DNA of 49,119 nt. Origin: Omnitrophica bacterium GWA2_41_15. Its GTDB lineage: Bacteria > Omnitrophota > Gorgyraeia > Ghiorseimicrobiales > Ghiorseimicrobiaceae. Below the pieces are notes generated by a model that worked only from the letters and a program-made list of their open reading frames with translations, made no database searches and was not told where the DNA came from. Made by a program: the position numbers and the translations under genes. Of this stretch, positions 44,411 to 45,909 are shown piece by piece (position 1 is the first letter of the stretch; each line of letters begins with the position of its first letter). Location of the stretch: assembly GCA_919902105.1 (NCBI GenBank), contig CAKKQO010000028.1, forward strand, positions 1-49,119. The letters run 5' to 3'.

Positions 44411-45124
44411 TCATTTTAATACCATCACCGACATTTGCCTTCCGGCCACATCTCTCTCTTTACGGTAAGAAAAATATCGCGCGTTAGAACAAACAGTACA
44501 GATAGCGCTATCCTCAATCTGGCTTTTTTTAACCCCCAATCCTAAAAGCTGATTTTGATTCACCAATGCTAAATCTAAATATCGTTTATTATTACGGATG
44601 GTTACTCCTTGCGCAAAATACGCGGCTACATCAGGCCCGATTTCATAACAACAGGCGCGTATCGCCGGGCCAAAGGCGCAAAATAAATCTTTTGGCTCTG
44701 TGCCGAACCTCTTTCGCATTAACATCAGTGTTTTCTGCAAAATTTTATCTTTCGCCCCGCGCCATCCGGCATGCACTAAACCGCTAGCGTTATTTATAGA
44801 ATCATAAATAAAAACAGAGGGGCAGTCTGCGGTAAATACTGCAAGCGCTAAATGTTCTGCTTTCGTAATTAAGGCATCAGTATCGCGAATTACCCTACCC
44901 GCATCTTTTTTGCATACCTCAACTACATTTGCGCTATGGACTTGTCTTGCGCAGACAAAATTGTCATAATCTACATCGAGAAACCGAAGAAACTCTTTAC
45001 GGTTTTTTTTATACTCCGGGCAATCAAAACCTAAATCCAAACCCCTGTTGCTAAAACTTGCCGCAACCGGATAGCCGGAAAATATTTTAAAAGAACTTAC
45101 CTTCTCTGCAACGCTATGCGTCAT
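44411..45124 (-). CDS. pgeF: Purine nucleoside phosphorylase/laccase-domain protein (PgeF/YfiH)
   Basis: 237 residues. The DUF152 pattern is clear: RQVHSANVVEVCK, DALITKAEHLALAVFTADCPSVFIYD, ASGLVHAGWRGAKDKILQKTL with the zinc-site His, and FGPAIRACCYEIGPDVAAYF with the family Cys. Such proteins act on purine nucleosides or on peptidoglycan-type errors (PgeF). The start ATG lies inside the last codons of the broken yggU gene, so the two were once translationally coupled. Confidence 0.93.
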   Translation of the reverse strand: MTHSVAEKVSSFKIFSGYPVAASFSNRGLDLGFDCPEYKKNRKEFLRFLDVDYDNFVCARQVHSANVVEVCKKDAGRVIRDTDALITKAEHLALAVFTADCPSVFIYDSINNASGLVHAGWRGAKDKILQKTLMLMRKRFGTEPKDLFCAFGPAIRACCYEIGPDVAAYFAQGVTIRNNKRYLDLALVNQNQLLGLGVKKSQIEDSAICTVCSNARYFSYRKERDVAGRQMSVMVLK

Positions 45125-45610
45125 AAATTTCGACTACTTTATTACGCCCCTTTAACCCTTTTACGATACTAACTTGTGATTTCTTTACTTTAAAGTAATC
45201 TGCCAATACCTCTATTAATGCCTTATTCGCCTTACCTTCAACAGCCGGGGCATTACTGAGCCTTCACAAAATAATGGATATATTGGAAGGCGTAGATTTG
45301 AGCCTGATGCAAGGCGCGACGACGAAGATGTAGTCTTTGCACTACTTCGAGGAGGAGCAACGAAGCAGCAGGCCAAAGATGCGCCTTCCCCGAAGGGGCT
45401 GGCCGCTTTTGGGCTGCGACTGCGTCGCTCGTCGCTTACGTGCCGCATCGGGCACGCTACGCTCCTCGTCTCCTTGTCTCGCTCCAAAATCGCCTCAGCC
45501 AATGTATCCATTATTTTGCGAAGGCTCAGTAGATAAACTTTAAAACCGTTTTCTCTGCCAAAAACTTCGTTTTTGCGGGCATTCGTCACAACCCGTACAC
45601 TCACTGTCAT
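45114..45610 (-). pseudogene. yggU: DUF167/YggU-family gene split by a MITE
   Basis: The N-terminal 27 codons (MTVSVRVVTNARKNEVFG..FKVYL, 45610-45530) and the C-terminal 46 codons (NAPAVEGKANKALIEVLADY...VVEIYDA, 45254-45114) are the two halves of one DUF167 protein (normal motif KVxLxAPAVEGKANKAL). A 278-base inverted-repeat element lies exactly between them. The halves are in different frames. The 131-residue frame reading from the start into the element is therefore not a real protein. The end of yggU overlaps the pgeF start by 11 bases, and its start overlaps the TM2-like gene by 4. Confidence 0.9.
45254..45531. mobile_element. MITE-like element inside yggU
   Basis: 33-bp terminal inverted repeats (45254-45286 and 45499-45531; outer bases TACTGAGCCTTC(A/G)CAAAATA) match at 31 of 33 positions and continue as a weaker inverted match for about 50 more bases. 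The interior is much richer in G+C than the surroundings and has no transposase. TA at both borders fits a Tc1/mariner-IS630-type MITE with TA duplication, but the rejoined host gene is then one base out of frame, so the exact border is uncertain. Confidence 0.85.
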
Positions 45611-45909
45611 TTTTCCTTGGCAGTGTTATAGGCATCAAAAACACTGTTAACCCCTAAAATAGCAATTAAAAGAATGCCCCCTAACAACAAAATCAACCCG
45701 GCTATAAGCTCGCCTCTAAAAAATATATTTCCGAAAAGATAATAACCAATCAATATAGCCCCCAACAACACCATAAACAACCCCAGAGACGAAAAGAGCA
45801 TCATAAACAAGCCTTTTTTAATCTGCCCGTTATAAATCTGGCCTAACCCTGAAAAGAAAAAAGAAAATACTGCGGCAACACCGGGATTTTTCCTGTCTTG
45901 TAAATCCAT
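45607..45909 (-). CDS. TM2-like small membrane protein
   Basis: 100 residues. The N-terminal RKNPGVAAVFSFFFSGLGQIYNGQIKKGLFMML (about 6-38) has the GLGQIYNGQ turn of TM2-domain and related proteins. Three hydrophobic segments (about 10-25, 33-57, 65-90) are present. Function unknown. The stop overlaps the yggU start (ATGA), and it follows rmuC by 17 bases. Confidence 0.8.
   Translation of the reverse strand: MDLQDRKNPGVAAVFSFFFSGLGQIYNGQIKKGLFMMLFSSLGLFMVLLGAILIGYYLFGNIFFRGELIAGLILLLGGILLIAILGVNSVFDAYNTAKEK

Follow-up and report, generated by a model that had tools for sequence, protein, structure and literature searches.

The stretch of DNA analysed here (the window; 49,119 nucleotides) is contig C28 of an Omnitrophota MAG, Omnitrophica bacterium GWA2_41_15 (G000). 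Near its end the minus strand carries yggU, a gene that starts at 45610, stops at 45114 and is split by a palindromic element. The features of the locus are:

44411-45124, minus strand: pgeF-like gene (PF02578, Cu-oxidase_4; ORF list and Pfam), downstream of yggU and overlapping its end.
45114-45253, minus strand: C-terminal part of yggU (APAVEGKANKAL...VVEIYDA; DUF167, E = 4e-17).
45254-45531, no strand assigned: mobile palindromic element of 278 bp, TA included at both ends (inverted-repeat search and copies).
45254-45286, plus strand: left terminal inverted repeat, beginning TA-CTGAGCCTTC, 33 nt long; complementarity with the right arm 94%.
45285-45389, plus strand: local hairpin with core A at its apex and an inner stem of 45285-45300 / 45374-45389 (inverted repeat I2).
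45310-45362, plus strand: core hairpin A (CAAGGCGCGACGACGA-stem/loop-GAGGAGGAGCAACG), with the left TA 56 nt away (74.6 bits with covariance model R1, E = 7e-19).
45423-45476, minus strand: core hairpin B, the same structure on the opposite strand, with the right TA 55 nt away (45.1 bits with covariance model R1, E = 4e-10).
45499-45531, minus strand: right terminal inverted repeat (inverted-repeat search).
45532-45610, minus strand: N-terminal part of yggU (MTVSVRVVTNARKNEVFGRENGFKVYL; ORF list and comparison with G001).
45607-45909, minus strand: small membrane-protein ORF (ORF list), upstream of yggU and overlapping its start.

The initial annotation had described an insertion into a DUF167 gene overlapped by both of its neighbours, and the locus shows exactly this. 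The two halves of yggU flank the element, and in G001, a genome of the same genus, the gene runs uninterrupted between the same neighbours. In the profile search the C-terminal part alone matched DUF167 profile positions 34-75. The insertion had also been called recent, which is plausible: the C-terminal part is still recognisable as DUF167, the N-terminal part can be aligned to the gene of G001, and another copy of the element is 96% identical. Loss of translational coupling to pgeF, which the initial annotation had also proposed, may have followed from the insertion. A second yggU was looked for in G000 and none was found. One copy of the element has landed in yggU of G000 and has very probably inactivated the gene. 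A 131-aa ORF (45215-45610, minus strand) that begins at the yggU start and reads across the element is likely to be annotated as a spurious “hypothetical protein”. The upstream ORF (45607-45909, minus strand) contains a GLGQIYNG motif that recalls TM2 domains; it has no Pfam match at 1e-3.

An uninterrupted yggU is available in G001, but the exact TA duplication cannot be read cleanly from it. The empty locus reads TATCTGAATGCC and the window reads TATC[TA...TA]ATGCC; at this sole alignable empty site the window flanks lack one base for a clean TA duplication, so that some small change, during the insertion or later, has to be assumed. For five other copies compared with G001 the intergenic DNA was too diverged for a reading of the junction. 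TA is present on both sides of the elements and shows a YTAR preference, with a pyrimidine before the left TA in 66 of 70 cases (p = 2e-15) and a purine after the right TA in 64 of 71 (p = 1e-12). An ORF-spanning test of the insertion context was discarded as unreliable, since long chance ORFs occur in GC-rich genomes.

The 33-nt arms of the element are complementary at 31 of 33 positions (94%) and lie 212 nt apart. Folding of the full 278 bp gives -145 kcal/mol (z = -10.9 versus dinucleotide shuffles), and the two strands give z values of about -10.9 and -10.6. The ORF list holds no transposase ORF inside it, as had been noted before. The element is short, has no internal transposase and ends in terminal inverted repeats, the features by which MITEs are defined; it is MITE-like by anatomy, and a derivation from IS630 is not assigned. 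The earlier view of the GC-rich interior as empty was mistaken. On each of its two strands lies one copy of a structured 53-nt core that is conserved across phyla. Short elements of the family (most of them 162-178 bp) carry a single core at the apex, and long ones (most of them 258-296 bp) carry two cores, one per strand.

Mobility had been proposed by the initial annotation and is borne out by multiple, dispersed copies. At unrelated sites G000 holds five full and two diverged copies (about seven full or near-full) together with four contig-end pieces, and these form two sub-families with different ends (CTGAGCC... and TTGACCT...). G000 is a fragmented MAG of 83 contigs with several copies at contig ends, as one might expect if the yggU locus were an assembly or binning artefact. 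The family, however, recurs at unrelated sites of many separate assemblies, where it keeps a target preference and a fixed architecture, and we regard an artefact as extremely improbable. In G001 there are three identical copies (L137, L139 and L140) of a 43-bp internally shortened form, TACTGAGCCTCC...GGAGGCTCAGTA, explainable by a deletion between the subterminal GGAGGCTTAG and the terminal GGAGGCTCAG. One of these 43-bp elements sits in the intergenic region orthologous to that of the G000 copy L002.

Several copies show further rearrangements. In L003, L004 and L005 the stem-loop sequences (GTAGT/ACTAC and GTGCC/GGCAC) are swapped between the cores relative to L001, as if by an interior inversion or a stem exchange. 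The G001 copies L072 and L127 contain, in opposite orientations, an unrelated repeat of roughly 40 bp (GCAGTGGTTTGGCTTTCAATATAGCCAAA...), which may be another small mobile repeat. In L113 and L124 of G056 the double-core centre is expanded by copies of a unit of about 45 bp (GGGTCCAGCCC...TTTGAGGA).

A pattern comprising only the 5' flank of the core and the start of its stem was searched against 84,980 GTDB species (one genome each) and gave 91 matches, all in MAGs and under nine phylum-level labels; by our own estimate well under one match was expected by chance. By record title the matches comprise 33 Omnitrophota, 22 Eisenbacteria, 20 Elusimicrobia, 6 Planctomycetota, 4 Gemmatimonadota, 2 Krumholzibacteria, 2 Myxococcales, 1 Bdellovibrio and 1 Fibrobacter. 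The search pattern did not include the core 3' flank, and yet this flank shows 97% identity between phyla. The corresponding identity is 43% for the first 20 nt of the outer arm, 33% for the next 11 nt and 38% for the inner stem. A literature search on the core sequence returned no relevant paper, and none of the open papers searched shows this sequence; that all pattern-matched genomes are MAGs may explain why no earlier description was found.

Within the core, a stem-loop is closed by Watson-Crick pairs that alternate with tandem G.A mismatches, and the sequence of the stem varies freely while its pairing is kept. In an alignment of 20 equal-length cores 30 cells had changed on both sides of a pair. 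Among 100 distinct cores there were 179 double-sided changes versus 53 expected by shuffling, a value reached by none of 500 shuffles, and slid controls on the same alignment gave 5-21. The 20-core alignment is the cleaner test of covariation, because the 100-core alignment was fitted to the covariance model and the smaller one was not. The Watson-Crick pairs inside the G.A stack swap their orientation or type (CG63/GC33/AU2, GC83/AU13 and CG85/GC11), and the G.A positions stay non-Watson-Crick across the 100 cores.

In another scenario the core would function as an RNA instead of in mobility. The elements would then encode a transcribed structured RNA under selection (for mRNA stability, termination or as an RNase target) and would spread as useful or tolerated sequences. 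The very stable fold on both strands and the G-U pairs tolerated in the core stem fit such a role, and ERIC and Correia elements have been reported to act on mRNA (PMC10969869). The placement of the cores argues otherwise: in double-core elements both strands carry a core equidistant from the ends, which suits a symmetric DNA end function. Also, Rfam 15 gave no family match at gathering score, its sub-threshold plant miRNA match on L040 being regarded as a hairpin artefact. In our view the RNA scenario is unlikely.

The distance between core and end is about 55 nt in most elements, regardless of the arm sequence: in double-core elements the TA-to-core distance is 55 nt in 23 of 29 left arms and 20 of 29 right arms, and in 21 of 26 short single-core elements it is 55-56 nt. 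This ruler was not built in by our procedure, because the pairing search that defined the ends permitted arms much shorter or longer. The arm sequence itself differs greatly from phylum to phylum and sometimes between copies in a single genome, whereas the core is retained. The two arms of one copy nevertheless change together. In three sets they differ from each other at 1.4-3.5 positions, versus 5.5-8.4 between copies, and none of 2000 permutations was as extreme in any of the three; the signal is weaker in the small G000 set of 5 copies (97 of 2000). Template switching perfects quasi-palindromes, and the co-variation of the arms could stem from such repair instead of selection. For the core, selection is the better argued explanation, because the G.A mismatches persist and template switching alone would tend to remove them.

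The elements are patchily distributed. The core was found in 48 of 384 sampled Omnitrophota genomes, often in many copies, and was lacking in 336; element-free relatives such as G002 and G003 occur near carriers. This pattern is in keeping with a mobile element, not with a host gene. Viral contigs searched with the core pattern gave no match, and plasmid and phage collections queried with two elements gave no convincing match (one weak 35-bp plasmid match, from Deinococcus). The elements L054 (Fibrobacter MAG) and L058 (Gemmatimonas MAG) have identical arms, with L015 and L091 from Krumholzibacteria being close; recent transfer or binning contamination would account for the identity.

Which enzyme moves the elements? 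The initial annotation had pointed to an IS630/mariner-type source with the same ends, which our searches do not support: DDE_3 genes are missing from all 6 Omnitrophota carriers tested, G000 among them, and three terminal-inverted-repeat patterns, searched in three genome groups, returned element-length pairs and unpaired ends, with no IS-length pair. Missing transposases are weak to moderate evidence, because MAGs lose multi-copy IS elements. DDE_3 genes do occur in 7 of 16 further carriers. The sole IS630-like element with clear long terminal inverted repeats, in an Elusimicrobia carrier, has ends (TAGTATACGCGGCG...) unlike those of our elements, and the DDE_3 loci of the other carriers showed no ends matching the element. 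On these searches IS630 was set aside as the driver.

An ordinary IS630/Tc1-mariner-derived MITE would require that its transposase was missed or lost and acts via the terminal inverted repeats, with the core a mere passenger, e.g. a host-factor or transcription-related site. IS630 has a CTAG target preference, which the YTAR-flanked TA resembles, and the presence of DDE_3 in some carriers also agrees with this origin. Besides the missing genes and the differing ends, however, the inverted repeats diverge between phyla and within one genome while the core is constant, and a passenger core leaves the 55-nt ruler unexplained. We therefore take this derivation to be a serious but improbable alternative.

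Two other transposase types were considered. REPIN-like movement by a Y1/RAYT transposase would have a precedent in other hairpin-based non-autonomous elements (PMC3116915). Y1_Tnp is found in 11 of 20 element-bearing versus 17 of 20 element-free genomes and is lacking in the carriers G019, G050 and G164, among others, and TA-flanked inverted ends are not a known REPIN feature, which makes this origin very unlikely. For DDE_Tnp_1, and with it an IS4/IS5-derived MITE, 4 of 20 carriers versus 3 of 20 non-carriers show no association. Inspection by eye of the ORFs between closely spaced elements in L014 and L244 revealed no transposase-like gene.

A core conserved in about nine phyla between ends that differ suggests that an enzyme reading DNA shape moves the element. 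Core shape, the 55-nt distance and the YTAR context are conserved and the ends are largely free in sequence but stay paired, and the simplest reading is that the enzyme recognises the folded core. Such an enzyme, supplied in trans, would bind the core as a folded single strand or cruciform and would cut at a TA about 55 nt away, so that an element would be identified by its folded shape and spacing more than by the sequence of its ends. The pairing of the arms would be either selected or maintained by template switching. That the elements form a family of short, non-autonomous, MITE-like palindromes at YTAR sites, moved in trans by a putative core-reading factor, is a reading we find credible and evenly poised between right and wrong. 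The further step, to a cross-phylum class of mobile DNA in which an undescribed enzyme reads a G.A-stacked hairpin 55 nt from the cut and leaves the ends free as long as they pair, is tentative and rather doubtful. In any case the core-hairpin family combines strong structural covariation with a length ruler, and if the core is read by a protein, a new transposition or DNA-structure-recognition enzyme would come with a ready substrate.

Parallels to several known systems can be drawn. In integrons the folded strand of attC is recognised by structure, and its paired arms are of free sequence. The elements described here share the paired free-sequence arms and, putatively, the structure-based recognition, but differ in TA/YTAR insertion, dispersed copies and the lack of a cassette array. 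With the IS630/Tc1-mariner family they have in common the TA flanks and a YTAR/CTAG-like target; they differ in having no shared ends and in that DDE_3 is missing from several carriers. Like REPINs of the REP-RAYT system (PMC3116915) our elements are non-autonomous hairpin-forming repeats, presumably moved in trans, and unlike them they show TA-flanked inverted ends and no association with a Y1 transposase. Correia and ERIC elements are MITEs with TA target sites (reviewed in PMC10969869), and the resemblance extends to short length without a transposase, terminal inverted repeats, multiple copies, stable stem-loops and the occasional interruption of a gene. In contrast to these MITEs, no source IS was found here, and the conserved part is an interior core, shared across phyla and set at a constant distance from the ends. 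Where a MITE usually retains its ends and loses its middle, this core-hairpin family shows the reverse in about nine phyla.
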